Source: Methanolobus bombayensis (GTDB taxonomy: Archaea; Halobacteriota; Methanosarcinia; Methanosarcinales; Methanosarcinaceae). From it: a stretch of 64,000 nucleotides of DNA. Shown here piece after piece: positions 4,675 to 25,160 of the stretch (position 1 is its first letter; each line of letters begins with the position of its first letter). The translations under genes and the position numbers were made by a program. The notes beneath the pieces were generated by a model. The model ran no database searches, was not told the DNA's origin, and worked only from the letters and a program-made list of their open reading frames with translations. The DNA lies in NCBI RefSeq assembly GCF_017873415.1, contig NZ_JAGGKD010000008.1, forward strand, positions 1 through 64,000. The letters run 5' to 3'.

Positions 4675-6261
4675 TTAGATGGACTGCGGCTTGTCCATCA
4701 ATTCCATGTTGGATTTAAGTATCTGTGAGAATACTTCGTTCTTCTTCATATCACACTTTGCTGCTTCAAGGTTCCTTTTAAGTTCTGCAACTGATGTTTC
4801 AAGGCTCTGTATATAGATGGTCTGTTGCTCCAGTTTATTATTGAGTTTCTTGATATCAAGGTTCTGGCGATGGATAGTAACATGGTTACCGATCTCATTA
4901 TTTGTCTTTTCGATCATCTCATCCAGTTCTTTTCTCTTCTCTTCCATTTCAGCCAGCACTTTTTCCATCTCAGTCTCGAACTTTGAATTCTCCTCACGTT
5001 TTTGGTCGAGTTTCTCGCTCTCAGCCTTGATCTCTGCTTTCTTTGTTTCAAGAGCTTTCATATCTTCCTGGAAAGCACGTTCTTTTTCTTCGTGGGTCTT
5101 CAGGTTTTCCTCATGCTTCAATTTGAGCTGTTCGCGCTCAGCCTTGAACCCCGCTTTCATTTCTTCAAAAGTCTTCTCATAGGCTTTGATTTTCTCTTCA
5201 TGCTCCAGCTTGATCCTTTCCTGCTCAGCTTTGAACCCATTTTTCTTTTCATCAAAAGCCTTAATCTTCTCCTCAAAAGAAAGCTCCTTTTCCTGATGGT
5301 TTTTCAGTCTTTCCTCGTAGCTGACGACTGTCTGCTCAAGCTCCTTTGCTTTGCTTCCGATGTCAGAAATATCGGCCTGGATATGTTCTTTCATCTTTTC
5401 AATGGAAGAACGCTTCTCAGCCAGAAGTGACTTATCATCTTCTAATTGTGTTTTGATCGTCTGGATATCTGCTCTTTTCCTGTTAAGTTCTTTCAGCTCT
5501 GCATAAAATCCAGCCTTAATAACCTCAACTGCGGCAGGTGATGTAGCATCTGTCATCTCAATTGATAACTCTTCACCTTTAGCCAGTTGTTCTTCAAGAA
5601 GCTTGCATTGCTCATCAAGTTCAGATCTCTTACTTCTGTATTGTTCCATTTCGGTCTCATAAGCAGACCTGAGAGACTCAAGTTCTTCTTTTTTGTCTTC
5701 ATACTCGGCCAGTTCCTTTTCATGCTTCTCCTTTGAGATTTCAAGCTTTTCAACACGACTTTCAAAATCTGCACGTTTCTTTTCGAACTCGGCTATTTCC
5801 TTATCAAGCTCTTCTTTTTGATGTTCAGGTATGGCTTTTTCAGTCTTTTCAATAGCTGATTTCAGGATGGCACATTTTTGATTGAGCTTTTTTTCCTCTT
5901 CGGCAAAATTAGTTTTCAGTTCATCAAGCTCTTTCTGCTTTTTCTCAAATTCATTAATGTCAGCTTCATAGCGTTCACGGATCTGAAGAAGCTGTGCCTC
6001 TTTCTGGATAAAATCATCTATGTCAAAGTTGAATCCATCCGGTATATTGAATGTACTTGTCCTCTGTTCAGGAACAGGGTCTGGCATTTTCCCGGCTGAA
6101 GGTACATAGTTCTGAGGATTTGAAGAAGTGTCTTCATTTACTTCTTTTTCTGCTTCTTCTTCTTTAATAACGGGCTTACGGTAAATATTAGGGGTGAATA
6201 CCGATGAAGATGATGATTTTTCCTCTTTCCTGCCCCTGCCTGATAAGTTCAATGGATTCAT
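4675..6261 (-). CDS. Long coiled-coil protein coupled to an actin-like ATPase
   Basis: 528 residues. Residues 1-60 are Ser- and charge-rich and look disordered; FNIPDGFNFDIDDFIQKEAQ (about 72-91) leads into a heptad-rich coiled coil running almost to the C-terminus, dominated by Glu, Lys and Leu. Near 235-250 a short non-coiled insert (TDATSPAAVEVIKAG) breaks the rod, and a repeated unit of about 26-30 residues containing FKAEQERIKLEHEEKIKAYE is seen twice in the middle. No membrane segment or signal peptide. The start codon overlaps the stop of the upstream actin-like gene (TAATG), so the pair is translationally coupled. A filament adaptor or cytoskeletal partner is the natural inference; no function is known. 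Confidence 0.8.
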   Translation of the reverse strand: MNPLNLSGRGRKEEKSSSSSVFTPNIYRKPVIKEEEAEKEVNEDTSSNPQNYVPSAGKMPDPVPEQRTSTFNIPDGFNFDIDDFIQKEAQLLQIRERYEADINEFEKKQKELDELKTNFAEEEKKLNQKCAILKSAIEKTEKAIPEHQKEELDKEIAEFEKKRADFESRVEKLEISKEKHEKELAEYEDKKEELESLRSAYETEMEQYRSKRSELDEQCKLLEEQLAKGEELSIEMTDATSPAAVEVIKAGFYAELKELNRKRADIQTIKTQLEDDKSLLAEKRSSIEKMKEHIQADISDIGSKAKELEQTVVSYEERLKNHQEKELSFEEKIKAFDEKKNGFKAEQERIKLEHEEKIKAYEKTFEEMKAGFKAEREQLKLKHEENLKTHEEKERAFQEDMKALETKKAEIKAESEKLDQKREENSKFETEMEKVLAEMEEKRKELDEMIEKTNNEIGNHVTIHRQNLDIKKLNNKLEQQTIYIQSLETSVAELKRNLEAAKCDMKKNEVFSQILKSNMELMDKPQSI

Positions 6262-7289
6262 TATATCATTTCCTCAGTATCTTTTTCAGTAGTTAGCTGA
6301 TTCCAGAAGTCAGCTGGCATATTCTTTGCGATCTCCAGTGCACCTTCTGAGATCCCGTACTCAGGATCAATGTCAGAAAATACTTTTCCGCCACCCAGTA
6401 CTTTTAATTCGTTCTCGATAAAGCTGTCAATGCCATCGAGATTGCTGGTTCCCCCCAATATATGAATGTTATTTCTTAGTTTTTCACGAAGTTCCGGCTC
6501 ATGATCTGACAGGATCCTGGTAATTCCTGATACAATGTCAGTTACAACAAATTCGCATGCAAGCTGCAATTCTTCAATAATGGATTCCTGAACATGTCCA
6601 TTTTCAAGAGGTACATCAACAACGCATGTATCCGAACCCGGATCAAGTGCACCGTATTTCTCTTTCCATTCCCTTGCAAGTTCTTCACTTATTGTTGAAT
6701 CCGGCCATCTGTCATTGACAAGTTTGACTATCTCCGAATCAATGTCTTTTCCTGCACAGGAAAGTCTCAGGCAATCATTTTCCCTGGGAACCTCACTGTC
6801 GATTATGCATATATCGGTTTTACTGTAGCCAATATCCACTATTATCGATCTGTCAGGAAGATTGTTTTTGTAAGCTGCACAAAAAAGTTCATCAACCAGC
6901 ATAGCTCCTGTAAATACTTCATTGGCCAGCTCCAGAAGTTTCTTTTTATATGCCTTGTCAGCATTTGCAGGAACACCTATTATTGCATAGGTATTCTTTT
7001 CCACGACTTCGTTCTTTTCAAGTACATGCTTCAGGAATCGTCTGCAAGCATCTGTATTCTCTTCACTTTTGAGTTCCCCGTTAAAGAGTTCCACTTTTTT
7101 CCCGTCTTCCAGTTCAAGTGCATCTTTTCCGGCCAGTACTTTCTCAAGGTCGTTACCATTTTCACTGGAAAAAGCAACCAAACTCCGTTCTGAGAACTTT
7201 TTTCCTTCACTGCTGCAAACAGATGTTTTGTACATCCCTGCATCTATACCGATGTAGAGACATTTATCACTGGTTATCTCCCCTTCCAT
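6261..7289 (-). CDS. Actin/Hsp70-fold ATPase (MreB/ParM-like), archaeal
   Basis: 342 residues from the chosen ATG at 7289, with a longer possible start at 7352 that only adds a hydrophobic, unconserved-looking tail. The three nucleotide motifs of the actin superfamily are visible: phosphate 1 YIGIDAGMYKTSV at the N-terminus, phosphate 2 IIVDIGYSKTDICII mid-protein, and the adenosine motif IHILGGTSNLDGI near the C-terminus. IIGVPANADKAYKKKLLELA resembles the connecting segment before the second subdomain seen in MreB and DnaK-like proteins. It is shorter than Hsp70 and lacks its substrate domain. It is coupled to the downstream coiled-coil gene. A polymerising, filament-forming ATPase is inferred from fold only. 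Confidence 0.8.
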   Translation of the reverse strand: MEGEITSDKCLYIGIDAGMYKTSVCSSEGKKFSERSLVAFSSENGNDLEKVLAGKDALELEDGKKVELFNGELKSEENTDACRRFLKHVLEKNEVVEKNTYAIIGVPANADKAYKKKLLELANEVFTGAMLVDELFCAAYKNNLPDRSIIVDIGYSKTDICIIDSEVPRENDCLRLSCAGKDIDSEIVKLVNDRWPDSTISEELAREWKEKYGALDPGSDTCVVDVPLENGHVQESIIEELQLACEFVVTDIVSGITRILSDHEPELREKLRNNIHILGGTSNLDGIDSFIENELKVLGGGKVFSDIDPEYGISEGALEIAKNMPADFWNQLTTEKDTEEMI

Positions 7290-7527
7290 GTAATCAACTG
7301 TTATCGTTATTAAGACCCACATGGAATTATAACAAATATACATGGGATCCATTTTTCTTAATAATAGAAGGTTCTATTAAATCAGTATTTATATATTATG
7401 AACATGAGATCTGCATCTATGGCGACAGATATCACTAAATAAATTCATAACTAATTGAAAAAAGGTATCAATATGATGTATTACTACGCAATCATGTCAT
7501 GTTCAAGAAATACAATATTTATGGATG

Positions 7528-8421
7528 TCAATTAATATAATTATCCATATGTTTTTTGTACAGGACGTGAACTATTCCTTCTGCCAGCCCAAGTTTTGGT
7601 ACATGCATGTATCCGATATCGCTCCATTTCATGACCGAGTGATATATTCTTGATGCAGGGACTATAACATCAGCTCTGTCAGGACGCAGACCAAGTTTTG
7701 TGATCCTCTGCTCCAGTGTGAATCCTTTAAGATATTTTTTCAGTTCTTTGATGTCTTTTCTCATTAGAAGTGTCCCATCCTTTCGGCCCGACATCCTGTA
7801 AAGCTTATTGATGTTGCCGCCACTTCCGATGGCATAATCAGGCTTATGTTCATTGGTGACCTTTTTGACCCATTTCTTCATCTCATTCCAGTCATCCTTT
7901 GTCACAATACCTTCAAGCATCCTGATTGTACCGATATTGAAAGACCTGTATGCAAACACCTTCTTACCTTTAAAGAGGATAATCTCAGTACTACCGCCTC
8001 CAACATCAATATGAAGATAAGTTGAATTACCGTTTCCGATTATCTTTTCTATTCTGTTGGAATAGATTATCTTAGCTTCTTTTCTTCCGCTTATTACATT
8101 AAGGTCGATGCCGCTTTTTTCTTTTATCTTAGCAACTATCTCATCACTGTTATCAGCTTCACGCATGGCTGAAGTTGCACATGCCATATAATCAAGGGGT
8201 TCATAGGCGTCCATCAGGTATTTGAATCCCATCATTGTCTTCAAAAGCCTGGAAACTTTTTCCGGCGGGATGTTATTGTGGATAAATGCATCCTCACCCA
8301 GCCTTATGGGCATGCGTATAAAAGAGACTTTTTCGTAAACAGGTTCGATACCTTCCGAATCAACCTTTGACAGAAGAAGCCTGACAGCATTTGAACCAAT
8401 GTCTATGGCAGCGAATTTCAT
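7528..8421 (-). CDS. ppx: Exopolyphosphatase/GppA-type phosphatase, two-domain short form
   Basis: 297 residues. The ASKHA fold is clear: AAIDIGSNAVRLLL at the N-terminus, ACATSAMREA, the acidic ISGRKEAKIIYS loop, HIDVGGGSTEIILF phosphate loop and AIGSGGNINKL. Family members remove phosphate from polyphosphate ends or hydrolyse pppGpp. The length covers only domains I and II; the C-terminal HD-like domain of E. coli Ppx is absent and a similar HD module is found fused to a CYTH domain at 16002-17255. A GAGGAC ribosome site precedes the ATG. It lies 14 bp downstream of ppk, suggesting one transcript. Confidence 0.9.
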   Translation of the reverse strand: MKFAAIDIGSNAVRLLLSKVDSEGIEPVYEKVSFIRMPIRLGEDAFIHNNIPPEKVSRLLKTMMGFKYLMDAYEPLDYMACATSAMREADNSDEIVAKIKEKSGIDLNVISGRKEAKIIYSNRIEKIIGNGNSTYLHIDVGGGSTEIILFKGKKVFAYRSFNIGTIRMLEGIVTKDDWNEMKKWVKKVTNEHKPDYAIGSGGNINKLYRMSGRKDGTLLMRKDIKELKKYLKGFTLEQRITKLGLRPDRADVIVPASRIYHSVMKWSDIGYMHVPKLGLAEGIVHVLYKKHMDNYIN

Positions 8422-8435
8422 CCAGTGTCCTCGTT

Positions 8436-10490
8436 TTAAAGTTGTTTTTCAAGAAAAGTGTATATATCTTCCTGGGCACGACAGGGCTTGTGTTCGTTCT
8501 GAACATACTTGTTATCCTGTTTTTCATCTATTATTCTGGCTTTAGTGTTATCAGCGAACTGAATATCCATGTGTTGTCTCAGTTCTTTCTGCAAAGCAGG
8601 ATCATATATTGGTGTAGCTACTTCCACACGCCTGTCAAGGTTTCGTACCATCCAGTCGGCAGATGAGATGAAGTATTTCTCATCCCCGTTGTTGCAGAAA
8701 ATGAATATTCTGGAATGCTCAAGGTATTTATCAACTATACTGGTAACTTCTATATTTTCACTGAGGTCTTTGACACCTGGAACAAGTGAACATATTCCTC
8801 TGACAACAAGTTTGACCTTTACACCTGCTTTACCGGCCTCATACAATTTGTTGATCATTTCGCTGTCTACAAGACTATTCATCTTGGCATGGATGTATGC
8901 AGGTTTACCTTCCTCTACATTCTTTATTTCGGTGTCAATGAGTTTTGTGAACTTATTACGCATTTGCAAAGGAGAAACCACAAGGTGCTCATAATCGTAG
9001 ACCTTATAATTGTGATTAAAGAAATTAAAAATCCTGTCAACTTCATATGTAATGTCAGGATTTGTTGTCATCAACATGTGGTCACAATAGAGTTTTGCAG
9101 TTGACTCATTGAAATTGCCTGTGCCGATACAAGAATAATGTACCATCTTATTTTCTTCTTTCCTGGTGATATGGCACAGTTTAGAATGTACCTTCAGACC
9201 CGGCACTCCATCAATGATCCTGGCACCTGCCTGTTCAAGTTTCTGTGTCCAGTAAATGTTTGACTCTTCATCGAACCGTGCCTGAAGTTCGATAACAACA
9301 GTAACATCTTTTCCATTCTTTATCGCATTTATAAGTGCGTTAATGACATTTGAGTTACGTGCAACCCTGTACAGAGTAACTTTGATGCTTGCAACATTAG
9401 GGTCAATTGCCGCTTCCCTTAAAAGATCAATGAAGTAGTCAAAGGACTGGTAGGGGTAATGAAGCAGAATATCTTTTTCCCTGATGGCAGCAAGCATACT
9501 CTTGTAACGTCTCAGGTCTTTGTGTGGTAAAGGAGGTTTCTTTTCATAATAAGATGATTCCGGCCCGATCTTGGGGAAATTCATAAAGTCCTTTGCATTG
9601 TGATATTTTCCACCGGGCACCAGATTTTCAAAATTCTGTATATCAAGTCTTTTGAGAGTAAAATCAAGCAGATAATACGGCATTTCCCTGTCATACACAA
9701 AGCGTACAGGCTGACCTTTTTTCCTTTCTTCAAGGCTTTCGGAAACCTTTTCAAAGAAACTCTTGGTCACATCATCGTCAATATCAAGTTCCGCATCTCT
9801 TGTGAGTTTGATGGTGTATGCACCTATGGAATCATAATCAAAGGTAGAGAAGATATCATCCAGGCCAAAACGGATAACATCGTCAAGCATTATCAAACAC
9901 TTACGTCCTTCTGAATCCGGGAGATTAATAATACGTGGAAGAACATCAGCAGGGACTTCTATCACTGCGAATTTTGAGCTTTGAGGGTCCCACTTTTTCC
10001 TTACATCAATCATCAGATAAATTACCTGATTCTTAAGGTATGGAAAATCGGGAATGTCCTTCAACATTACAGGTATGAGACGTGGGCGAACTTTTTCCTG
10101 GAAATATACTCTCAGAAAATCTTTCTGTTCATCATTAAGCTGGGTTTCATCCAGAATGACAATGTTGTGGGCTTCAAGTTCTTTTGTAAGCTCAACAAAA
10201 ACCTTATCGAAATCATCCCTGAGATCAAGCACGATGCTATGTACCTGTTTCATCACTTTTTTCGGTGAAACCCCAACCATGGCTTTGGACTTAACTCCTG
10301 CATCTATCATCCTTTGCAGGGTGCCAACTCTCACACTGAAGAATTCATCCAGATTGGATGAAAATATCCCGAGGAATTTCAAACGTTCAAGTAAAGGGAC
10401 AGTGGGATCCTTTGCTTCCTGAAGGACTCTTTCATTAAAAGAAAGCCAGCTGATTTCCCTGTTTATATAATCACTTACTTCATTGGACAT
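8436..10490 (-). CDS. ppk: Polyphosphate kinase 1
   Basis: 684 residues from the ATG at 10490 (an ATG at 10499 is equally possible; the long N-terminal extension back to 10655 is hydrophobic and unlike the family). The enzyme reversibly polymerises ATP gamma-phosphate into polyphosphate. NREISWLSFNERVLQEA marks the N domain; YPYQSFDYFIDLLREAA and KVTLYRVARNSNVINALI the C1 domain; VHSKLCHITR carries the phosphorylated histidine, CIGTGNFNESTAKLYCDH follows, and IHAKMNSLVD carries the second histidine region. Upstream, TATA-like tracts near 10590-10605 would give a leader of 60-90 nt. It sits between the CHAD gene and ppx on the same strand. Confidence 0.95.
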   Translation of the reverse strand: MSNEVSDYINREISWLSFNERVLQEAKDPTVPLLERLKFLGIFSSNLDEFFSVRVGTLQRMIDAGVKSKAMVGVSPKKVMKQVHSIVLDLRDDFDKVFVELTKELEAHNIVILDETQLNDEQKDFLRVYFQEKVRPRLIPVMLKDIPDFPYLKNQVIYLMIDVRKKWDPQSSKFAVIEVPADVLPRIINLPDSEGRKCLIMLDDVIRFGLDDIFSTFDYDSIGAYTIKLTRDAELDIDDDVTKSFFEKVSESLEERKKGQPVRFVYDREMPYYLLDFTLKRLDIQNFENLVPGGKYHNAKDFMNFPKIGPESSYYEKKPPLPHKDLRRYKSMLAAIREKDILLHYPYQSFDYFIDLLREAAIDPNVASIKVTLYRVARNSNVINALINAIKNGKDVTVVIELQARFDEESNIYWTQKLEQAGARIIDGVPGLKVHSKLCHITRKEENKMVHYSCIGTGNFNESTAKLYCDHMLMTTNPDITYEVDRIFNFFNHNYKVYDYEHLVVSPLQMRNKFTKLIDTEIKNVEEGKPAYIHAKMNSLVDSEMINKLYEAGKAGVKVKLVVRGICSLVPGVKDLSENIEVTSIVDKYLEHSRIFIFCNNGDEKYFISSADWMVRNLDRRVEVATPIYDPALQKELRQHMDIQFADNTKARIIDEKQDNKYVQNEHKPCRAQEDIYTFLEKQL

Positions 10491-10659
10491 AAAATTCATA
10501 TTTCTCAATCTTAAAAACGCCAGAATACTGTCGTGTTTTGATAAAACAACAGTAATTCTATTATATAACACTTCATACAGATTCATATATAGTAATATAT
10601 AGCACAATATAGTCTTACGTAGTCGATACAATTTTCCAGGCCATATTATCAGCAATTCT

Positions 10660-12573
10660 TCAGGAATTGTATAATCCTGCTATTGCCTGTGAGAACCTGA
10701 CACTGAAATCAGGGTCAATAACATTTGACCATGCATCAGGGAATGATTCCAGCAGCGATGCAAGTTCTTTCTTTCTGTACTCGATATAGGCATCAACTCC
10801 CGGATAATCCCTGATGCTGGCAGAGTTCTTCTTTCCGTGTGTCTCTCCCCATACACCATATCTCTCGAAATTCTCAAGCATTTCAAGTGCAACCACAGTG
10901 TCATGCATATCTCCGAGATTATCCTGGAGAGCTTTCAGGTCCTTTATAAGGCTCTTTGTTTCTGAACCAAGAACTTCTTTGAAGAACTCAATGGTATAAC
11001 GCAGTATCTTCACATCTATCCTTAATTGATGATATTTTTCAAGGTAAGGGTCAATGGATATATCGTTAGTGAGTACATCACCATATGCCCTTACAGTTGC
11101 AAGCTGGGAGTAGAGAAGCACAGGCAATACATCCACAACTCTGGCAGGAACAGGCTCGCCGTTTTTCTTTGATGATTTCATCTTCCATGATTTCTTATGC
11201 AGCAAATAGTCTGCAAATTTCTTCTTGAACTTATTATAACGTGGATCATCAAGGTACACAAGCATCGTACCACGATGTTTTGCCCTTTCTATAAGAATGG
11301 AATCTGTAAGTGGATCCATTTCAGGAACACTTTCCGGTGCTTGTGCCTCAAGATAATGATCTATCTTCTCAAGGAACACATCCAGGTCACGCACGGTTCC
11401 TAGCGTCTTCCTTATGGATTTTATATCTTTGTAATGGGAAGACATTTCCTTCATGTTAAGATAGTCTTCCAGAACTTCGATGATTGAACGCATACGCATA
11501 GCAGCAACACGCATGTCATGGAGCTCTTCAATATCTTTTCCAACTTTTGTGCCCCTTTCATGCTCTATCATCTGACCAAAATGATACATGAGTATCTTAC
11601 GTGCAGCCCCACGCATTGTATCATCAGCCTTTATGTCCGTCTTTTTGATTGACCGGAACTCTGAGTAAGGAGTTATCAATGCTTTTTCTTCAGTTTTATC
11701 CTGATATTCAGCTTCTTTCTGTTCCGGTTCCTCTGTCTTTTTTTCATCTAAGTCATTTTCAGGAGACTCGGTAATTTCCGGCTCAGGAACATCGACGATT
11801 TCCGGGAATTGTGTAGTTTCAAGAGCAATGGGCTCTTCATGAGTTTCATCTGTATTGCAAACTTTAGTATTTTCAATGCTGAAAGATTCAGTTACATTTT
11901 CAGCATCTTCTTCCGTTTCTCTTTTTTCTTCATAGGATTCCATGATCAGGGTCTCCGGTAATTTTTCTTCGGAAACTGTATTATTTACAATATAATTGTT
12001 CTCACCATCACTGGTACCTGTGCCTGTAATAATGGCAGGTTCATAGGAACCTGATGTGATATTTGTCATCATTATGCCTGCAAAAGTTGTCAGAACAGAG
12101 CATTCTTGTTGCTTTGTTTCATTTTGCAATGTGTCAGAATCAATATCCCTGTCTTCACAGAGCTCATTTTCTCCCTGTGCCTGAAGGAAGTAGTTTACAA
12201 AAATGTTGATCAATAGCAGGAATATTCCAAGAGAATATGAAATAATTGCATAACTTACTATGGGATATATCCAGTTATCGGGAAAAGAGAACATGAACAC
12301 AAGAAGTCCTGAAACAGACAACAGCAAACCTGCAAGGAAAGAATAGCTGCGTGAAAGTCTCTGGCTTATTCCTGCAATATTAATGCCAGCAAGAATGAAC
12401 ACTATGCCGGAAGCAAGGAGCATACAAACCGTCAGAATAACTTCAGGGCCGGAACCGCGGTTCAGTCTGCTGACTATGGCAAAAAGCAGACCTGTCATGC
12501 AAAATACCAGGCCTGTGAGAAAACCAAGTGATGCTACTAAGGAATATTTTCTGATAAATACACTAGATGACAT
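10660..12573 (-). CDS. Membrane-anchored CHAD-domain protein (polyphosphate binding)
   Basis: 637 residues from the ATG at 12573, chosen because GGGAG precedes it closely; an ATG 45 bases upstream lacks such a site. Four hydrophobic helices occupy residues 10-135, then an acidic, Glu/Thr-rich linker to about 305. The CHAD domain follows (about 315-630), with its conserved basic helices visible: LHDMRVAAMRMRSIIEVLED, IRKTLGTVRDLDVFLEKIDH, HQLRIDVKILRYTIEFF and LQDNLGDMHDTVVALEML. CHAD domains bind polyphosphate through conserved His, Arg and Lys residues. With PPK1 and Ppx next door this protein probably tethers polyphosphate or its enzymes to the membrane. Confidence 0.88.
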   Translation of the reverse strand: MSSSVFIRKYSLVASLGFLTGLVFCMTGLLFAIVSRLNRGSGPEVILTVCMLLASGIVFILAGINIAGISQRLSRSYSFLAGLLLSVSGLLVFMFSFPDNWIYPIVSYAIISYSLGIFLLLINIFVNYFLQAQGENELCEDRDIDSDTLQNETKQQECSVLTTFAGIMMTNITSGSYEPAIITGTGTSDGENNYIVNNTVSEEKLPETLIMESYEEKRETEEDAENVTESFSIENTKVCNTDETHEEPIALETTQFPEIVDVPEPEITESPENDLDEKKTEEPEQKEAEYQDKTEEKALITPYSEFRSIKKTDIKADDTMRGAARKILMYHFGQMIEHERGTKVGKDIEELHDMRVAAMRMRSIIEVLEDYLNMKEMSSHYKDIKSIRKTLGTVRDLDVFLEKIDHYLEAQAPESVPEMDPLTDSILIERAKHRGTMLVYLDDPRYNKFKKKFADYLLHKKSWKMKSSKKNGEPVPARVVDVLPVLLYSQLATVRAYGDVLTNDISIDPYLEKYHQLRIDVKILRYTIEFFKEVLGSETKSLIKDLKALQDNLGDMHDTVVALEMLENFERYGVWGETHGKKNSASIRDYPGVDAYIEYRKKELASLLESFPDAWSNVIDPDFSVRFSQAIAGLYNS

Positions 12574-12659
12574 TATTCTCCCTTTGACAACTTTTGCCCT
12601 GTTCAATAATTGCTTCAATTACACTTATCTATATTTACGATTGTTATTCTCTCTGGAAA

Positions 12660-13004
12660 TTAAAGCTTAATGTGTTTCAGTTCCTTCATAGTTCCCCAAA
12701 GGATCTTTTGCTGGCGCTTTAGCTGTCTCATCTGACTCTTGATGACACGTTTCTTAGCTTTCTTACTCTTATATTCCGAGAGTGATTTCTTTGCATCCTT
12801 AATATTTGAAGCAATACCGGATTTTACAATTTCTTTGTCTTTGAGGATTGCTTTTACAGGACAGATCTTAATGCATTTTCCGCAGTTGATACATTTATCT
12901 TCCTTGATAAGGGCTTTACCTTTTACCATATCAATTGCATCAACCGGGCATTTCTTAACACATTTCTTGCATGACACACATTTTTTTTTATTAACCCACG
13001 GCAT
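12660..13004 (-). CDS. 2[4Fe-4S] ferredoxin with a basic C-terminal tail
   Basis: 114 residues from the ATG at 13004 (GAGGAT eight bases upstream). Two classic motifs, CVSCKKCVKKCP and CINCGKCIKICP, each with the following Pro-Val-x-Ala-Ile, form a bacterial-type dicluster ferredoxin in residues 1-60. The last 50 residues are unusual: a Lys/Arg-rich helical tail (SKKAKKRVIKSQMRQLKRQ). Electron partner unknown. It lies between the CHAD gene and a divergent MgtC gene within the polyphosphate island; the basic tail could contact a polyanion, which is speculation. Confidence 0.88.
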   Translation of the reverse strand: MPWVNKKKCVSCKKCVKKCPVDAIDMVKGKALIKEDKCINCGKCIKICPVKAILKDKEIVKSGIASNIKDAKKSLSEYKSKKAKKRVIKSQMRQLKRQQKILWGTMKELKHIKL

Positions 13005-13164
13005 GATAATCAATCCTCATTACTAATCGGTCAAGCAGATATAAAAATATATAGCAATATATGTATTAGATAACACCAATGTTACTATTTGTACAGATGG
13101 TATAATTTACCATTTGCTGAACAGATATTCATCAGGATTATTTCCTCGGAAAGGATGAAGATAT

Positions 13165-14442
13165 ATGGATATTCAACTGGGTATTGACCCTTTGTACACT
13201 TCAATTCTGGAAAAAATAGTACTTTCAATGATGATAGGTATACTGATAGGTCTTGAAAGAGAACACTGGCGTTCGGATAAGAAGATATTCGCAGGTGTGA
13301 GAACTTTTTCCATTACCTGTATTGCAGGTACCCTTGCAACCTTTCTTGCAGACTACATTGGTATGTGGATACTAATATTAAGTACATTGCTTGTTCTTTT
13401 TGCTTCTGCATCCCTGATATATCTGGTAAATATCATTAAGGAAAAATCCGGACTAACCACTTCAATCGCATTGTTTTGTACTTATCTTCTGGGAATCATC
13501 GTGGCTGAAGGTCTGTACCTGATAGCAATAGTTACCGGACTGCTAATGACCTTCCTGCTCATTGAGAAAAAACCTCTTCACTCTTTTGCAGAAAATCTCT
13601 CTGAAGATGATATAAGCAGTGCACTCAAATTCCTTGCAGTTGCTTTTGTGTTATATCCAATAGTGCCTGAAGAACCCATTTACGGAATAATCAGGCTTAA
13701 ACAAGCTATACTTATTGTGGTACTTGTTTCTTTCATAACTTTTGTGAGTTATGTATCACTGAAAAAAATGGGTCCAAAAGGTGGCATTCCATATTCCGGT
13801 TTCTTTGGAGGATTCATAAGCAGTGAAGCCACAGTTGCAGCCCTTGCAGGTCTCTCTAAAAAGGGACCATTGTTAAAAGATTCCGTTCACATAGGTTCCA
13901 TACTTGCAGTGGTGTCCATGATAATAAGCAACAGTATTATTGCATTCATAGCAGACCCTACAATGCAGACCGTAACTCTGATGGCTCCTGCGTTCCTTGT
14001 AATGGGAGCAGTGGCACTGGTAGTTGTTGCTTTTAAATGGAAAAAGACCATCACTCCGAAAGAGAACATAGAAATAGGATCTCCCTTTGCCCTTGGTCCT
14101 GCTTTTAAGTTCGGTGCAGTATTTACGATCCTGCTTATTGTTGCAAATTTTGCTAACGAATATGGAGGAGCTGAGGGTGCATATATCACTGCACTTGGTG
14201 GTATCGTCAGCAGTTCTGCTGTAACTGCTTCAGTTGCAGCCCTTGCTTTTTCAGGTAACCTTTCTGCACATACTGCTGCAGAAACAGCTATACTTGCGGG
14301 TCTTGTCAGCACTCTCAGCAAACCGTTTTATATAAAAATAAGTGGCTCTCCTGAATTTTTCAAAACATCCCTTCTCTCATTTCTGGCAATAGTATTTTCA
14401 GGTTCAATAACCTTGCTTATCTGGAACTTCTACATTAATTGA
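13165..14442 (+). CDS. MgtC/SapB-DUF4010 membrane protein
   Basis: 425 residues with 10-12 hydrophobic helices. The N-terminal 140 residues match the MgtC/SapB family (MIGILIGLEREHWRSDKKIFAGVRTF has the conserved G-x-E-R-E and G-x-R-T-F), and the remainder matches DUF4010 (KGGIPYSGFFGGFISSEATVAAL and the C-terminal GGIVSSSAVTASVAALA). Such fusions are common in archaea and bacteria; a transport or ion-homeostasis role is suspected but unproven. MgtC-type proteins are linked to magnesium and phosphate homeostasis, which suits the polyphosphate neighbours. Promoter region shared with the divergent ferredoxin gene. Confidence 0.85.
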   Translation: MDIQLGIDPLYTSILEKIVLSMMIGILIGLEREHWRSDKKIFAGVRTFSITCIAGTLATFLADYIGMWILILSTLLVLFASASLIYLVNIIKEKSGLTTSIALFCTYLLGIIVAEGLYLIAIVTGLLMTFLLIEKKPLHSFAENLSEDDISSALKFLAVAFVLYPIVPEEPIYGIIRLKQAILIVVLVSFITFVSYVSLKKMGPKGGIPYSGFFGGFISSEATVAALAGLSKKGPLLKDSVHIGSILAVVSMIISNSIIAFIADPTMQTVTLMAPAFLVMGAVALVVVAFKWKKTITPKENIEIGSPFALGPAFKFGAVFTILLIVANFANEYGGAEGAYITALGGIVSSSAVTASVAALAFSGNLSAHTAAETAILAGLVSTLSKPFYIKISGSPEFFKTSLLSFLAIVFSGSITLLIWNFYIN

Positions 14443-14505
14443 TTATTAAATATTTGTATCAATATAACTATATATACAAAGATTAACTATATTTAACGGG
14501 ATATC

Positions 14506-16008
14506 ATGCTTGAAAATGTAGACCTTTCCAAGAGTCTTCCCAAAGATGAGTACAAGAAAATAATGGATGACCTGAAGATACGAATGGGAGAACTGCAGCG
14601 AAAAGCCTGGAAAATGAACATTCCTATTATTATTGTTTTTGAGGGCTGGCATGCTTCAGGTATGTCAGAGATCATAAATCGTTTTCTTTTGACATTAAGT
14701 CCTATGGGCTTTAATCTTTATACAACCGGAAGACCCTGTTATCAGGAAGAACAGAAACCTCTTTTATGGCGTTTCTGGACAAAGATCCCTCAGAATGGCA
14801 GAATTGCCATCTTCGACAGAAGCTGGTATCGCAGGATAATTATTGAAAATAACAAGAAAGGTAAAACTGATAAGGATATGCAAAGGTGCCTTTCAAATCT
14901 GACCTATTTTGAAAGACAACTAACAGACGGTGGCTATCTGATGATCAAACTGTTTCTTCATATAAGTAAGGAGGAACAGGATAATAGATATCTTGAAATG
15001 AAAAAAACGGGAATACCCCAGTTCATCATTGAAGAGGAAGAAAGGGATTATCTGAAAGGTTATGACAAATATTTGCCTCTTATTGAGGGAATACTTGAAA
15101 AAACAGATCGTTCTTCTGCTCCATGGACTATCATAGAATCCGATGATAAGAATTTCGCAACGGTTAAAATTCTTGCAAAGGTGATGGAGTCTATTGAATA
15201 CAAGATACAGGATATCGAAAATAAAACATTGATGGAAAAAAATCAGGAAAAAGATGATTGTATAATTCCTAATATAGATTCTTCAATACTTGAAAAAGTC
15301 AACCCTGATAAGAGTCTCACACATGACACATACAAAAAAGAGAAAAAAAAGTATCAGAAAAAACTGAAACGACTCCAGTATGATCTTTTCAGAAACAGGA
15401 TACCAGTTATTATTGTTTTTGAAGGATGGGATGCCTCCGGGAAAGGTGGCGGTATCAGAAGACTTGTTAAAGATCTGAATCCAAGGCTATATCAGGTAAC
15501 TTCTGTGGGTGTGCCCAATCAGAATGAACTTGAACACCATTATCTCTGGCGATTCTACAATCAGATCCCTGAAGCAGGCCATATTGGAATATTTGACAGG
15601 AGCTGGTATGGAAGAGTGCTGGTAGAAAGAGTGGAGAATCTCTGTAATGTTGAAGAGTGGAAACGCGCATACAGGGAGATCAATGAATTCGAAGAGACTC
15701 TTTCCAACTATGGTACTATAATCATTAAGTTCTGGCTGCATATTGATAAGGATGAGCAGCTGAAAAGATTCAAGCAGCGTGAAAAGACCGAACACAAGCA
15801 ATGGAAGATAACTCCTGACGACTGGAGGAACCGTGAAAAATGGAACCTCTATCTTGACGCTGCCGATGAAATGCTGACGAAAACAAGTACTTCATGGGCT
15901 CCCTGGACAATTGTTGAATCCAATGACAAGTACTATTCCAGGATCAAAATAATGAACACTGTCGTCGACAGTATCGAAAAAGAACTGAGAGAACGCGGGC
16001 TTCAGTAA
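14506..16008 (+). CDS. Tandem-domain PPK2 (polyphosphate:AMP phosphotransferase-like)
   Basis: 500 residues made of two PPK2 domains, about 1-240 and 260-500. The C-terminal one has an intact Walker A (FEGWDASGKGGGIRRL), lid-like WRFYNQIPEAGHIGIFDRSWYGRVLVERV and the conserved E-x-x-W-x-R-A-Y segment. In the N-terminal one Walker A is degenerate (FEGWHASGMSEIINRF: Asp to His, Lys to Met) while IFDRSWYRRIIIE remains. In studied two-domain PPK2 enzymes (class II) such a fusion phosphorylates AMP to ADP with polyphosphate. The C-terminal half is the likely active unit. It overlaps the convergent CYTH-HD gene by 7 bp. Confidence 0.9.
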   Translation: MLENVDLSKSLPKDEYKKIMDDLKIRMGELQRKAWKMNIPIIIVFEGWHASGMSEIINRFLLTLSPMGFNLYTTGRPCYQEEQKPLLWRFWTKIPQNGRIAIFDRSWYRRIIIENNKKGKTDKDMQRCLSNLTYFERQLTDGGYLMIKLFLHISKEEQDNRYLEMKKTGIPQFIIEEEERDYLKGYDKYLPLIEGILEKTDRSSAPWTIIESDDKNFATVKILAKVMESIEYKIQDIENKTLMEKNQEKDDCIIPNIDSSILEKVNPDKSLTHDTYKKEKKKYQKKLKRLQYDLFRNRIPVIIVFEGWDASGKGGGIRRLVKDLNPRLYQVTSVGVPNQNELEHHYLWRFYNQIPEAGHIGIFDRSWYGRVLVERVENLCNVEEWKRAYREINEFEETLSNYGTIIIKFWLHIDKDEQLKRFKQREKTEHKQWKITPDDWRNREKWNLYLDAADEMLTKTSTSWAPWTIVESNDKYYSRIKIMNTVVDSIEKELRERGLQ

Positions 16009-17255
16009 TCTTCCCTGAAGTAGATATCCCGTTCAAACAGCAAGCGCCAGAGATCGGCTTTGGTGTCTGCTCTATCTGCATCGATACTGGCTCCAGGGCC
16101 TTTAATTTTAATTATGATATCTTCTTTTGCAAGATCAACTTCGGAGATTTCGCTATCCATTCTGCTATAGTCCAGTGCATCGGCAAGTCTCAGCAATGCT
16201 GAGAGCTTGAGAATATCTTCCTGCATCTGGCTCGGCAGCTCAAAGAATTTCTTTTTCAGGGATAATTTGTGGAGTTTCTTCCTGTCTATTCTTTTTTTGT
16301 GCAGAAAAGTCATCCATGGCAGAAAGGTGCAAAGAGGATATGGAAGTTCATCGGGGCATGTCTCCAAGAGTATATCACGGCCCACTTTATGATGGTTTTT
16401 TGCATCTGTCATAACGCCTATATCGTGAACAACCGCAGCTACTCTAAGTGTTTGACGAAGCTCATCCGGCAGAAGATGTATACTTTTCAGTTCATCAAAA
16501 AGGTGGAAGGAATTTTCAGCAACATTTCGTGAATGTTCAACCTCTATCCCATATTCATCTATCATGTCACTGAGAGGAACAAATGAAATATCATCATATC
16601 CTGTTTTTATGCCGTAGTTTAATATGCTGGCGTCCTTTTGCATATTTTCTCTGAAGAGTTCCAGACCGTTATCGAACTTTGAACTAGTTCCAGGAACCAG
16701 TCCTTCCATGTCTTTCAGATTTGAGACTATCTGGTGCAGTTCTGATTCAGTTCCATCTCCCGCAAGTTCAACTTCCAGTTCAAGATAGCTTTTTTTGTTG
16801 TCTTCACATACAATGACTACATCATCAAAACTCATCTCTGCAATATTTCTCTGGTTGCTATCTATCTGAACATCCGCTCTTTTATGCATTACAGTAAAAA
16901 GAGGGAATAGTTCACCTTCGCCTATAATTGAAAGCACTCTGTGCCTGAGAACACAATTATTCCACTTTTTTACAGGCAGTTTCTCGTCAAGTGTGAACTC
17001 AACTTCTTCTCTCATGTGTACAAGAGAATCAGAACTTGAGAGTGATTTTAGTGTATATGTCACCTTGTCAGCTTTCTCACGGCAGCGGAATGAAAAACCT
17101 GAAGCATAAATTGCCATATCAAGTGTATCAAGATAGGTGTCTGTGAAAACTTTGTCTTTTCTGTCTCCTACACTGAATCCGTTAATAGCGGCTACACCTT
17201 TAAGTTTTTCAAAGATGTCAGGTTCTGATATGAGGAATTTAGCTTCAATCTCCAT
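16002..17255 (-). CDS. CYTH-HD fusion protein (polyphosphate/nucleotide phosphohydrolase)
   Basis: 417 residues. The N-terminal half is a CYTH (triphosphate tunnel) domain: MEIEAKFLI signature, DTYLDTLDMAIYASGFSFRCR, a central basic strand with TYTLKS, and acidic SYLELEVEL. Residues 220-415 form an HD domain with HSRNVAENSFHLFDEL, RVAAVVHDIGVM (the HD pair) and LLRLADALDYSR, resembling the C-terminal domain of Ppx/GppA. CYTH enzymes hydrolyse triphosphate-containing substrates including short polyphosphate. With PPK1, Ppx, CHAD and PPK2 nearby, a role in polyphosphate turnover is likely. An IS element lies just upstream of its start. Confidence 0.88.
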   Translation of the reverse strand: MEIEAKFLISEPDIFEKLKGVAAINGFSVGDRKDKVFTDTYLDTLDMAIYASGFSFRCREKADKVTYTLKSLSSSDSLVHMREEVEFTLDEKLPVKKWNNCVLRHRVLSIIGEGELFPLFTVMHKRADVQIDSNQRNIAEMSFDDVVIVCEDNKKSYLELEVELAGDGTESELHQIVSNLKDMEGLVPGTSSKFDNGLELFRENMQKDASILNYGIKTGYDDISFVPLSDMIDEYGIEVEHSRNVAENSFHLFDELKSIHLLPDELRQTLRVAAVVHDIGVMTDAKNHHKVGRDILLETCPDELPYPLCTFLPWMTFLHKKRIDRKKLHKLSLKKKFFELPSQMQEDILKLSALLRLADALDYSRMDSEISEVDLAKEDIIIKIKGPGASIDADRADTKADLWRLLFERDIYFREDY

Positions 17256-17327: not shown

Positions 17328-18464
17328 TCATAGGGTGGTTTCCTGCTTCATTATCGAATCCAACGACTCAATTCCACAGGCTTTAACTGTAGTTCCTACA
17401 GCACGATTGAGAATATTGATAGCAGCATTATGGTCACGGTCAAGAACTAATCCACAGTGAGGACAGTTGTGTGTCCTTACCGCTAATGATTTTTCTACCT
17501 TTTGACCACAGTTGCTACATAGTTGAGATGTGTTATATGGATTAACTAATTCTACAAACTTACCAGCTTCTTCCGCTTTGTATTTTGTAATCTGAATTAG
17601 ATCACTCCATGATGCATCATGTATTGACTTTGATAGTCTTGAATTTTTAACCATGTTCTTTACATTCAGATCTTCAAAAGCTATGTAATCGTAAGCATTA
17701 ATGAGTTCCCTGCTTAGTTTATGGTTAAAATCGGTTCTCTGATTGCGAATTTTACGATGCAAGGTGTTTACCTTATCACATTGTTTCTTCCAATTGTTAG
17801 AGAATTTCTTTTTACGACTAAGGTTACGTTGTTGTCTTTTTAATTCGCCTTCAGTATTGCGATAATATTTCGGAGGATCTATCTGAGTACCATCACTCAA
17901 AGTAACCAGAGAATTGAGTCCTACGTCAATACCTACAAAGGTAACAGGTTCAACAGGTGTAACATTGTTCTCAACGACTACAGAGAATGTAACATACCAT
18001 TGTTTCCCATCTTTGCGAATAGTACAGGTCTTGATCTTGCCTTCAATCTCTCGATGCTGAACTATCTTGATCTCTCCAATCTTCGATAGCTTCAACTTCT
18101 TTCCAGAGATACTAAAACCAGATTGGGGATAGGTAAAACTGTTATATCGTCTCTTTCCTTTGAACCGAGGATAACCTACTTTTGCTTCTCCGTTCTTACA
18201 TCGTCTGAAAAAAGCATCAAATGATTTACCTAATCTCCTGATTACATCCTGTTTTACCTGAGAATGTACGTCTGTATCAAATTCAAGATACTGAACCTGA
18301 TACAACTGTTCCATAGTAGATAATCCTTGATTACATCTATCATAGGCATTTCTACGGTCTGTAAGAAATTCGTTATAGATATGTCTACAAACATCAATTG
18401 TCCTGATTAAAGTTACTTCCTGTTGTTTGGTAGGATACAATCTAAACTTATAAGATTTCTGCAT
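17328..18464 (-). CDS. tnpB: TnpB, RNA-guided nuclease of IS605 family
   Basis: 378 residues. The RuvC nuclease residues are all present: GIDVGLNS (Asp), FEDLNVKNM (Glu) and LDRDHNAAINI (Asp), with the zinc ribbon CSNCGQK...CPHCG between the last two. The N-terminus has the usual YKFRLYPTKQQE start and a basic RNA-binding region. The stop codon overlaps the terminal hairpin of the element, as expected if the guide RNA overlaps the gene's 3' end. It appears intact and so potentially active. Confidence 0.93.
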   Translation of the reverse strand: MQKSYKFRLYPTKQQEVTLIRTIDVCRHIYNEFLTDRRNAYDRCNQGLSTMEQLYQVQYLEFDTDVHSQVKQDVIRRLGKSFDAFFRRCKNGEAKVGYPRFKGKRRYNSFTYPQSGFSISGKKLKLSKIGEIKIVQHREIEGKIKTCTIRKDGKQWYVTFSVVVENNVTPVEPVTFVGIDVGLNSLVTLSDGTQIDPPKYYRNTEGELKRQQRNLSRKKKFSNNWKKQCDKVNTLHRKIRNQRTDFNHKLSRELINAYDYIAFEDLNVKNMVKNSRLSKSIHDASWSDLIQITKYKAEEAGKFVELVNPYNTSQLCSNCGQKVEKSLAVRTHNCPHCGLVLDRDHNAAINILNRAVGTTVKACGIESLDSIMKQETTL

Positions 18465-19367: not shown

Positions 19368-19967
19368 TTAATTCAGCTTGCGATATAATTGTGCATTTGC
19401 AACTACCGGTTCGAAATGACCCCGAAGTTCATCAGGCATTTTCTGGGTTTGTTCGGTTGCAAAATAACCACCATCAAGAGAATCATGGAACATCCGCATT
19501 ACTTCAACCCTTTCAGCTTCATTAAAATGCAGGAGAACATTTTTGCAGAGAACAAGGTTCAGCCCTGTTCTGATCGGTTTCATGTCCAGAAGATTGTGCT
19601 TGGTGAACTCGACACTTCTTCTTATTTCATCGTCTATTTTAAAGTGATCAGGCTCGTCAGCAGGTGAGAAGTATTTCTCAAATATTGGTTTTGGTATTCT
19701 CTGCACCATTTCTCTGGGATAGATGCCTTCTTTGATGATATCACCGAAAAGATTACTGTTATCAATGTCAGTTGCGTGTATCTTCACGTTCCTGAAGATC
19801 ATTCCCATGTTCTCTCTTAACACAATAGCCAGTGAATATGGTTCAGGACCCATTGCACATCCTGCGTCCCATATGTGGATGTACCTTCTGCTTCTGAGCT
19901 CAGGAATTACGTAGTCTCTGATCATTTCCAGTGTCTGCATGTCTCTGAAGAAATAAGTGAATGCCAT
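19368..19967 (-). CDS. cheR: CheR-type chemoreceptor methyltransferase, lacking the N-terminal domain
   Basis: 199 residues from the ATG at 19967, chosen for the AGGAGAGG site six bases upstream; the longer frame adds only hydrophobic residues. It begins TYFFRDMQTLEMIRDYVIPE, the linker that precedes the SAM domain in CheR, followed by IWDAGCAMGPEPYSLAIVL (SAM loop, G-C-A-x-G-x-E-P-Y-S), KIHATDIDNSNL and VLCKNVLLHF. The all-alpha N-terminal domain of classical CheR is missing, as in several archaeal forms. It would methylate glutamates of the two receptors encoded upstream. An (AAAT)7 tract lies in the gap between cheW and cheR. Confidence 0.88.
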   Translation of the reverse strand: MAFTYFFRDMQTLEMIRDYVIPELRSRRYIHIWDAGCAMGPEPYSLAIVLRENMGMIFRNVKIHATDIDNSNLFGDIIKEGIYPREMVQRIPKPIFEKYFSPADEPDHFKIDDEIRRSVEFTKHNLLDMKPIRTGLNLVLCKNVLLHFNEAERVEVMRMFHDSLDGGYFATEQTQKMPDELRGHFEPVVANAQLYRKLN

Positions 19968-20076
19968 AATTTTCCTCTCCTGTATTGAAAAGAATTCAAT
20001 GTACATAAATATATATATAATGTTCAAAAGTAGGTAATTCATGTACATGCTTACTGATTATACTAATATAAAGAAC

Positions 20077-20104
20077 AAATAAATAAATAAATAAATAAAT
20101 AAAT
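20077..20104. repeat. (AAAT)7 tetranucleotide repeat between cheW and cheR
   Basis: Seven perfect copies of AAAT (ATTT on the coding strand of cheR) in the 200-bp gap upstream of cheR. A TATA-like tract on the minus strand (near 20004-20022) sits between the repeat and the cheR start. Tracts of this kind are prone to slippage; an effect on cheR expression is possible but not shown. Confidence 0.9.
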
Positions 20105-20165
20105 ATATAATACAAATTTTGGATGGATAAAAATCAAAAAAAGAAAAGAGCAGATGTCTGTATTC

Positions 20166-20657
20166 TCAGGCAAGTTCTGCTATTTCTTCAACTTCTTTTT
20201 TATCCATGATCTTTGCAAGGTCGAGGAATATCAGTAGACGCTCATCGAGCTTTCCAACACCTGTAATATATTCTTTACTAATGTTGGACATTACCAGATC
20301 CGGTGCCGGATCTACACTTGATTCCGGAATTCTGAGTACCTCATTGACAGAATCTACGATCATTCCCACAACATTGTCACCTATCTCAACTACAATGATA
20401 CGGGAATGTGCATCTGCTTCCTTGGAAGCAAGATTGAAGCGTTTGTCAAGGTTGATGACAACAATTATCCTGCCACGAAGATTGATTACACCTTCAACAA
20501 AGTCAGGAGATTGGGGGATCTGGGTGATCTCAGGCATCCTGATGATCTCCTGAACTTTCATGATCTCTACGCCAAACTCCTCGCCTCCCAACTGGAAGAC
20601 TACCATCTGTAATAATTCCTCAGTCGGTCCATTTCCGGCTATTGAAACATCTTTCAT
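20166..20657 (-). CDS. cheW: CheW chemotaxis adaptor
   Basis: 163 residues with the CheW fold: VVFQLGGEEFGVEIMKVQEIIRM, the FVEGVINLRGRIIVVINLDKRF centre with the conserved N-L-R-G, VGMIVDSVNEVLRI and the C-terminal ITGVGKLDERLLIFLDLAKIM. CheW couples receptors to the CheA kinase. It is 12 bp downstream of the receptor gene at 20670. A second cheW is at 24633-25145, so each receptor is followed by its own adaptor, as expected from duplication of a receptor-cheW unit. Confidence 0.95.
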   Translation of the reverse strand: MKDVSIAGNGPTEELLQMVVFQLGGEEFGVEIMKVQEIIRMPEITQIPQSPDFVEGVINLRGRIIVVINLDKRFNLASKEADAHSRIIVVEIGDNVVGMIVDSVNEVLRIPESSVDPAPDLVMSNISKEYITGVGKLDERLLIFLDLAKIMDKKEVEEIAELA

Positions 20658-20669
20658 ATTCTCATCTCA

Positions 20670-23600
20670 TTATACGAGGAGCTGCTCCTCTTTGTCTGAA
20701 TCTTCCCTTTTCCCGGGGCCAGAAGTATTTCCACTTGCCATGGAAATGGAGTCTAATATAAACTTGTCAACTACAACTTTCATATCTGCTGCAAGAGTTG
20801 ACAGGTCTTCTGCAGACCTTGAAAGTTCCTGCATTGTTGCACTCTGCTCTTCAACAGCTGCTGATGCTTCCTCAGTTCCTGCTGCGGATTCTTCTGAAAT
20901 GGCACTAACTTCTTCGATCGAGGAAGTGACCTCTTCGATAGAAGCGGACTGCTCCTGGGCAGCAGCAGCAATATCCTGAACCATATTTGCTATGAGGTTT
21001 CCTGACTCAACCACCTGCTCAATACTTGATACAGCTTCATGAAGGGCAGTTGCTCCAGATTCTACTTCCTCTGAACCCTGCTGCATTGATGTTACAGCAT
21101 TCTGTGTTCCTTCCTGTATCTCACTGATAAGTGTGGAAATCTGCTTAGCTGCATTACCAGAATCCTCTGCAAGTTTCCTGACTTCATCTGCAACCACAGC
21201 GAATCCCCGACCATGTTCCCCTGCACGTGCTGCTTCAATTGCTGCATTTAGTGCAAGAAGGTTTGTCTGGTCTGCAATATTAGTAATGAGGTTTACTATC
21301 TCACCGATCTGCTTGGATTTACCATCAAGCTCCATGATAACGTTTGATGATTCTCCTGTTGCCTTTTTGATTGAATCCATCTTTAAAAGGAGGTCCTTGG
21401 CATTAACACCAAGACTATTGATCATCTCATTTGAATCCTTAGCGTTCTCTGCTGCCTTTTGTGAGTTAGTTGCAACTTCCTGGACTGTCATGGTCATATC
21501 AACCATTGCACGAGATACCTCTTCTGTCTTAGAAGCCTGGCTCTGTGCACCTCTTGATATTTCAGAAACAGTGTCTGCTACCTGATATGATGATGATGAC
21601 ATTTGCTCAACTGAAGCAGACATTTCTTCGGCTGTTGATGCAACATTTCTTGAACTGTCATGTACCATGGATACAACTTCATTAAGTGATCTTCTGGTGT
21701 TCTCTATACCATCAGTTAGTACTTTGAACTCTCCAACACCATGGACTGAGACTGCCTGACTGAGATCATTATTTGCAATTGCTTCAAGAACATTTGCGGA
21801 ATCTTCAATAATTGATTGCAGGTCGTTACCAAATGCATCGACAGTATCGGCAAATACCTTAAAGTCACCTTCTGTTTCAAAGCTGAACCTTGCATCGAGA
21901 TGACCTCCAGAGAACTCATTGACCATGCGCATTGCCTCATTCATAGGTGTTACAAGTGCTTCGATTGCCTCTGAAACAGCATCCATTGCATCTCTGTATG
22001 CCCCTTCAAATTGTGATGAATCGGCCTTATAGTCAAGATTACCGCTCTTTGCAGCGTTACCAAGTTTAACGAATTCATTACCAAGGCTCTCTATATTGCT
22101 CATCATGGTAATGTAACATGGAATCAGTTCGTCATTCTCTGAACGTTTACCGGTTTTCTTGAGTCCTTCAAGGTCACTAAGGTCGCCTACTGCGATTCTT
22201 TTATTGACACCCATAACTGTAAGGATTCTCTGTCGGATTCCGTTTGTAGCATTTGCCACTTCTTCATAGATTCCCTGATAATCGCCTTCAACAGCTCTTG
22301 TGTGGTCGTTGTCAACCATGAGCTGCAGGACTTCATTTGCCTCTACAAGACCACCAAGACCATCAATACAATCATTGATGTTGTTCTTGAGAATGTTGAA
22401 ATCACCCTGGTATTCATCAGTTATCTTTTCAGGTATTTCTCCTTTAGATATCTGCTCTACATAATCTGCGGCGACATTGAGCGGATCGATTACAGCATCA
22501 AGTGTGTTATTTACACCTTCCACGACTTTACGGAAGTCGCCTTCATGTCTTGAAGCATCTGCACGGGTATCGAGACGCCCCTCAACTGCCGCTGTTTCAA
22601 GCATGTTAGCATCTGTGATAAGACTGGAAACTGCTGTTGCCACATCATCAAGCGATTCATATATTTTTGAGAAATTCTCATACTGAACAGCAGTGTGTTC
22701 ACTGGCAGCGGTTATGTTCGAGTCGATCTCCAGATTACCAGATGCAATATTCTCCAGGTTAGCAACCAGGCGCGTAATCTCTTTTGAAGTGTAAATTGCG
22801 TTCACCTTTGAAGCTGAGACATCCTGAACTACCTCGATATGACCGATCTGTTTACCCTTGGAGTCATATATGTATGAGGTATCTACCTGCAAGTGGCTCT
22901 TCTCTCCATCTTCCCCGGGTTGTTCGAAGAACGTAATTGGATTACCATTCTCTAACCTGCAGACACCACATTTTTCTGTGCCGCATATGTTGGCTCCCCA
23001 TTCACTGCATTGATGACCGATGACCTCCTCACGCTTCAGACCTGTTGCTTCTTCAGCTGGTTTGTTAAGGAAGGTCCAGTTAAGATCATTATCTGTTACT
23101 GATACTGGGAAAGGAATGCTGTCAAGAATTGAATTATACCAATATACTTTATTCACAACAGTATCAAGAGTATTGTTCACTCCGTCTACAACCTTACGGA
23201 AGTCACCGTTGTGCCTGCTCGCATCAGCACGGGTATCAAAGTGCTCGTTTGTGGCTGCTTCTGCCAGCATCTCTGCATCTTCAATAAGCGCCCCTACTGC
23301 ATCTATACACTGGTTGAGGTTGTTCTTGATCTCGTTGAAATCACCGTTATAGTCATCAGTGATCTTTTCAGGAATATCACCTTTGGAGATTCGATCAACG
23401 TATTCTGCAGTTACATTGAGTGGAGCGATCAAAGCATCAAATGCACCGTTTACGGTACCAACCGCTTCCTGGAAAAGACCATCGAACTCTGAAGAATCTA
23501 CCCTGTAGTCCAGATTTCCGGCTTCGGCGGCCTGTCCGAGTTCAATGAACTCATCAGCCATTCCCTTGACTGTTTCCATGAGCCTGATTGTGTATGGTAA

Positions 23601-24425: not shown

Positions 24426-24632
24426 GTTTTCACCCTGCAGTAACAAAAGCTAAACCAACCAAGTTCAACTGTTGCATATCTGCTGCCTATTTATAAAATA
24501 TAAACACATCTATATAATTATATTTATGCAACTTTAAAGATGTAGATAATTATATAAAAATATATCTTTGAAAAAAGATTGATGTACACAAATGCACATC
24601 TATGTTAAATACTGTTGGTTTTTAAAAATCGA

Positions 24633-25145: not shown

Positions 25146-25160
25146 TTAAATTCCTCCTAT

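Follow-up and report, generated by a model that had tools for sequence, protein, structure and literature searches.

The two-gene unit formed by an actin and a coiled-coil protein in Methanolobus bombayensis looks like an undescribed archaeal scaffold that holds something inside the cell. The stretch of DNA analyzed here, hereafter called the window, comprises 64,000 nucleotides (contig NZ_JAGGKD010000008.1, positions 1 to 64,000). The reading that we favor, with a probability of roughly 60%, is an autonomous scaffold in which a MamK-type filament is combined with a dedicated rod adaptor tethering something to the filament. The computed basis of this reading comprises the kinship of the actin with MamK, the strict pairing and co-occurrence of the two genes, a C-terminal module (CTM) shared by the rod partners, an ArlD/E-type head in the relatives, and purifying selection. 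From these results, we infer polymerization, the polarity of binding, and a cytoskeletal or positioning role of the pair.

Both open reading frames described in the earlier note are present on the minus strand. The first gene of the unit (7289..6261) encodes a 342-residue actin-fold protein with MamK-like NCBIfam, PDB, and Pfam matches, and the second (6261..4675) encodes a 528-residue coiled-coil partner, which is the next gene 3' of the actin in each Methanolobus locus examined. The stop codon of the actin gene (TAA, 6263..6261) shares its last A with the start codon of the rod gene (ATG, 6261..6259), and this TAATG overlap (6259..6263, minus strand) implies translational coupling. In nearly all relatives, the two genes either overlap by 1 or 4 nt or stand no more than 46 nt apart. 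An alternative, longer actin start is possible at 7352; close relatives start at the site matching 7289. The dN/dS values between relatives are about 0.08–0.23 for both genes, above those of neighboring genes yet clearly indicative of purifying selection, and both frames are therefore real genes. The locus contains ppx–ppk1–CHAD upstream of the pair and pyrF–DHS downstream, and no division, partition, or shape gene adjoins it, in agreement with the earlier note, in which the upstream polyphosphate genes (Ppx, PPK1, CHAD, PPK2, and CYTH) were not mentioned. A promoter of its own is probable for the pair, since the 238-nt gap between the actin gene and ppx contains, approximately 100 nt before the actin start, a TATA-box-like sequence, TATATAAATA (7386..7395, minus strand). 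Elsewhere in the window, two overlapping coiled-coil genes (307 and 230 residues) lie at 36843–38455 and resemble SMC/Rad50 only through coiled-coil composition. Four TnpB-like (IS605-type OrfB) genes were recognized by eye at 17328–18464, 35467–36687, 45360–46580, and 59955–61031, the second and third of which are near-identical.

The actin is a filament-type protein related to MamK and is neither a chaperone nor a true MreB. Its best model and its best solved structure are both MamK: the NCBIfam model NF040964 matches residues 11–334 with 220.8 bits (E = 2.4e-65), and the PDB chains 5ljw, 5jyg, and 5ljv match at about 1e-41. The Pfam MreB_Mbl model scores 64.9 bits. A chaperone, the outcome that the earlier note had regarded as fatal to its proposal, is rejected, as the only Hsp70-type match is HscA at 18.4 bits (cut-off 743) and no Hsp70 occurs among the listed solved structures. 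Likewise, a true MreB is rejected by PRK13927 (52.8 of 293 bits) and by the lack of mreC, mreD, and rodA nearby, and salactin by NF053533 (39 of 400 bits). The 400-bit cut-off of the MamK family is not reached by the actins of the window, Methanoperedens (387 bits), or ANME-2 (371 bits), whereas magnetosome MamK proteins of Nitrospirota score 447–465 bits. In a maximum-likelihood tree, the actins of Methanolobus, g14 (a further Methanosarcinaceae lineage bearing the pair), ANME-2, and Methanoperedens are positioned beside bacterial MamK, whereas salactin and MreB-type proteins are separated from these archaeal actins by a very long branch; the deep placement is unsure owing to long branches, which the Methanolobus actins also show. 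Two bacterial relatives, both from Nitrospirota, were recovered by an alignment-based contig scan, while a single-protein scan gave no match. One of them (L135) lies in a magnetosome cluster, with a MamM match of 392.7 bits, and the neighbors of the other (L133) resemble those of the first by eye. Among 820 open reading frames at the archaeal loci, no convincing mam homolog was found, with one weak match only.

The actin and the rod constitute a true two-gene unit. The actin is present in 54 of the 186 genomes of the order, distributed over Methanolobus (26 of 27), Methanoperedens (19 of about 31), the ANME-2 family (six), and g14 (three). In the single Methanolobus genome lacking it (G120), ppx is located at the contig end, exactly where the actin would start. 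Across the window and 53 loci from relatives, a coiled-coil or short rod gene follows 3' of the actin wherever the sequence suffices, and the order actin–partner is constant in all pair-bearing lineages. The earlier note had called for a survey of Methanosarcinales and had made its case depend on the two genes being neighbors in relatives; they are found together in all four lineages. In Methanoperedens, a full-length partner occurs in exactly the 19 genomes with the actin, and the approximately 12 others lack it (Fisher's test, 7e-9, kinship ignored). A search of open-licence full texts returned no paper on MamK in Methanoperedens, on an actin-like protein in Methanolobus, or on FlaD/FlaE with actin.

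Judged by their sequences, all rod partners form one family, with a head, a rod of about 80 to about 1,800 residues, and a conserved CTM of about 66 residues. Total lengths are about 200 residues in Methanoperedens, 447–607 in Methanolobus, and up to 1,940 in ANME-2, and the rod helix would extend over about 60 nm in the window partner, against a maximum of about 260 nm among the ANME-2 partners. The longest example (L058:3640–9462, 1,940 residues) carries an ArlD/E head, and its counterpart in a close relative (L074) comprises 1,657 residues. In the AlphaFold2 model of the window partner, residues 1–80 (6022..6261, minus strand) form a low-confidence coil with no secondary structure and pLDDT values mostly of 35–50, followed by helices at residues 81–143, 146–227, and 243–522. 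Short breaks separate the helices at residues 144–145 and 228–242; at the latter (5536..5580, minus strand), the helix is interrupted and pLDDT drops below 50 at residues 230–241. The disordered start and the internal break proposed in the earlier note are thus both seen in the model. The alignment of Methanolobus partners revealed the motif FTPNIYRKP at residues 22–30 (6172..6198, minus strand), in which F22 and P24–P30 (PNIYRKP) are invariant, and its exact back-translated pattern occurs once in this genome. The Methanoperedens, ANME-2, and g14 partners have as their head the ArlD/E domain known from the archaellum switch complex (PF04659), with E-values of 3.7e-17 and 9.3e-10 for the two partners tested, and g14 aligns in the same block. 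A profile search detected no PF04659 match in the window partner, and in Methanolobus the disordered region with PNIYRKP takes its place. A Foldseek comparison of the Methanoperedens partner model with the PDB gave no match with E < 0.001, so that no solved structure could be assigned to the ArlD/E-type head as a counterpart.

The CTM of the window partner (residues 456–521; 4699..4896, minus strand) is in register with those of the Methanoperedens, ANME-2, and g14 partners. A profile of the Methanoperedens CTM matches nearly all Methanolobus, ANME-2, and g14 C-termini with E-values of about 1e-11 to 1e-5, two Methanolobus partners matching more weakly. Apart from a Methanolobus paralog, nothing else scores better than 0.01, and the first unrelated protein appears at 0.015. 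Chance coiled-coil similarity is rejected, since the matches are located at the C-termini and those outside the family are weaker than 0.01. In a genome-wide search (E < 1e-9), the CTM was detected in 52 of the 54 actin-bearing genomes and in 2 of the 132 others. The partners of the two actin-bearing genomes without a match run off their contigs, and the two CTM genomes without a detected actin are G120 and G023, the latter from the ANME-2 family. A 281-residue coiled-coil protein with a CTM is encoded away from the pair in 25 of the 27 Methanolobus genomes, including G120; in M. bombayensis itself, it is located at L138:9340–10185 (contig C4, near 180 kb) among unrelated neighbors. G023 encodes a 239-residue coiled-coil CTM protein (L158:6877–7596). 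Because the CTM also occurs on the 281-residue protein elsewhere and on the G023 protein without an actin, it may be a module for coiled-coil pairing rather than for actin binding.

Three candidate cargos, namely the archaellum, the chemotaxis machinery, and polyphosphate, were tested, and none is universal among the pair-bearing genomes. The PF04659 head raises the idea that the pair is a polar scaffold anchoring archaellum motors or chemoreceptor arrays, with the ArlD/E-type head touching the motor. ArlCDE is thought to contact the polar cap (PMC8978795), which favors such an arrangement, and the pair could be part of the cap, the protein make-up of which is not given in that 2022 review. 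Archaellins are present in every Methanolobus genome and CheW in nearly all, and CheR–CheW–MCP genes lie directly upstream of the pair in those Methanolobus genomes that lack the polyphosphate cluster; however, the che genes adjoin the pair there only because the intervening cluster is missing. Furthermore, the window partner itself lacks PF04659, and the pair is absent from many genera of the order that have archaella. A strict dependence on the archaellum or chemotaxis is ruled out by two ANME-2 genomes, G015 (100% complete) and G019 (97%), which retain the pair with neither archaellins nor any other PF04659 protein, and by G128 (99%), which retains it without CheW. The polar-cap idea is attractive for archaellated species on account of the ArlCDE contact but cannot be the whole story, and we consider a polar scaffold rather unlikely. 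At 19368–28772, the window also encodes two chemoreceptors of very large size, in which HAMP-like segments are repeated, together with CheW and CheR genes.

The nucleotide pocket bears on whether the Methanolobus actin is dynamic. D17, E143, and D161 of MamK are all retained in the window actin; alignment to MamK places the catalytic E143 at E134 (6888..6890, minus strand) and D161 at D152. The earlier note had described the ATPase as intact, which applies to the reading frame, E134, and D152 but not to the phosphate-2 loop. At residues 152–159 (6813..6836, minus strand), this loop reads DIGYSKTD against DIGAGTTD in MamK (D161–D168), so that GAGT is replaced by GYSK, with the loss of G165 and the change of T166 to lysine. 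G165 is lost in 25 of the 26 Methanolobus actins and position 166 is lysine or arginine in 25 of 26, whereas G165 and T166 are kept in all Methanoperedens, ANME-2, and g14 actins. The residue equivalent to E143 is glutamate in 16 of the 26 Methanolobus actins and glycine, aspartate, or serine in the other 10; ANME-2 actins carry aspartate there. The near-fixed basic residue at T166 suggests a changed function and not random decay, and the altered pocket suggests that ATP hydrolysis is weak or absent in the Methanolobus actin, for which ATP-driven dynamics are not to be assumed. Given the rewritten loop, a Methanolobus filament would more likely be stable than dynamic in its role as a scaffold. 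The degenerate loop could also mean that the Methanolobus actin no longer polymerizes and serves only as a scaffold or switch bound to the rod, for which the loss of the glycine and of the catalytic glutamate and the long branches would speak. This non-filament alternative appears improbable, as the window actin retains the D17, D161, and E143 equivalents and the MamK-type C-terminal P-x-x-W, and the active sites are intact in relatives with the same partner family.

The reading with the least in its favor, and to us a highly improbable one, is that the pair organizes polyphosphate granules by placing or segregating the bodies made by Ppx, PPK1, CHAD, PPK2, and CYTH: the pair directly adjoins ppx–ppk1–CHAD in the window and in most Methanolobus genomes, but a functional tie is ruled out by genus g11 (L099, L103, and L107), in which pyrF directly adjoins ppx–ppk1–CHAD and neither an actin nor a rod gene intervenes, and by four 99%-complete Methanolobus genomes that keep the pair without a PPK1 match, while the Methanoperedens and ANME-2 pair loci lack polyphosphate genes and the gap with the TATA-like box parts the pair from ppx. 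The region at 7528–17255 encodes Ppx, PPK1, a membrane-anchored CHAD protein, a ferredoxin, MgtC/DUF4010, a two-domain PPK2 (polyphosphate:AMP phosphotransferase), and a CYTH-HD protein.

In the scaffold with a dedicated adaptor that we favor, the MamK-type actin would form a filament, the adaptor would bind it via the CTM, the head would bind the target, and the rod would set the distance between filament and target; in Methanolobus, the filament would act as a stable scaffold. This polarity is proposed because the CTM tracks the actin and the head differs between lineages. The best-supported reading by analogy is that the pair works like MamK with its MamJ or Mad adaptors. The window actin belongs to the same subfamily as MamK over its full length, with the P-x-x-W and the catalytic Glu and Asp kept, and MamK is likewise accompanied by an adaptor gene; the window actin differs in falling below the family cut-off, in sharing 29% identity with AMB-1 MamK, in the absence of magnetosome genes nearby, and in its phosphate-2 loop. 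MamJ tethers magnetosomes to MamK, and its hypervariable middle is dispensable (PMC10653835). As in the archaeal partner, conserved ends surround a variable middle in this adaptor encoded beside MamK, a likeness of arrangement for which homology is not claimed. Coiled-coil Mad proteins together with MamK and Mad28 organize magnetosome chains (PMC12748827), and Mad20, Mad23, Mad25, and Mad26, with extensive coiled coil, act with MamK and again resemble the archaeal partner in arrangement only. Unlike MamJ and the Mad proteins, the archaeal partner has its own CTM and an ArlD/E-type or PNIYRKP head. ArlD and ArlE share PF04659 with the N-terminal domain of the Methanoperedens, ANME-2, and g14 partners; the domain is absent from the window partner, and the partners that carry it go with an actin and are found in ANME-2 genomes devoid of archaellins. 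Salactin, likewise an archaeal actin, has been reported as nearest to MamK (PMC10746226), but it is remote from the window actin in both score and branch length, and no such partner is described for it. The filament-and-partner reading of the earlier note holds in part, as to the filament-type actin and the true unit; the pair is not unrelated to known kinds, since MamK with coiled-coil or acidic adaptors positions magnetosomes.

To our knowledge, a role or partner is known for few archaeal actins, and this pair supplies defined genes and motifs for experiments. A fuller and more tentative picture, possible but doubtful at present, is a positioning cytoskeleton of Methanosarcinales with a MamK-type filament, rods of variable length, and an ArlD/E head used outside the archaellum, in which Methanolobus has replaced the head and the ATP site and works independently of hydrolysis. 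If the scaffold reading is true, the magnetosome-type arrangement of actin and tether exists beyond magnetotaxis, in methanogens and anaerobic methane oxidizers, and cells devoid of archaellins make use of the ArlD/E domain of the archaellum. Having lost the phosphate-2 glycine across the genus, Methanolobus provides a natural test of a MamK-type actin working without hydrolysis.
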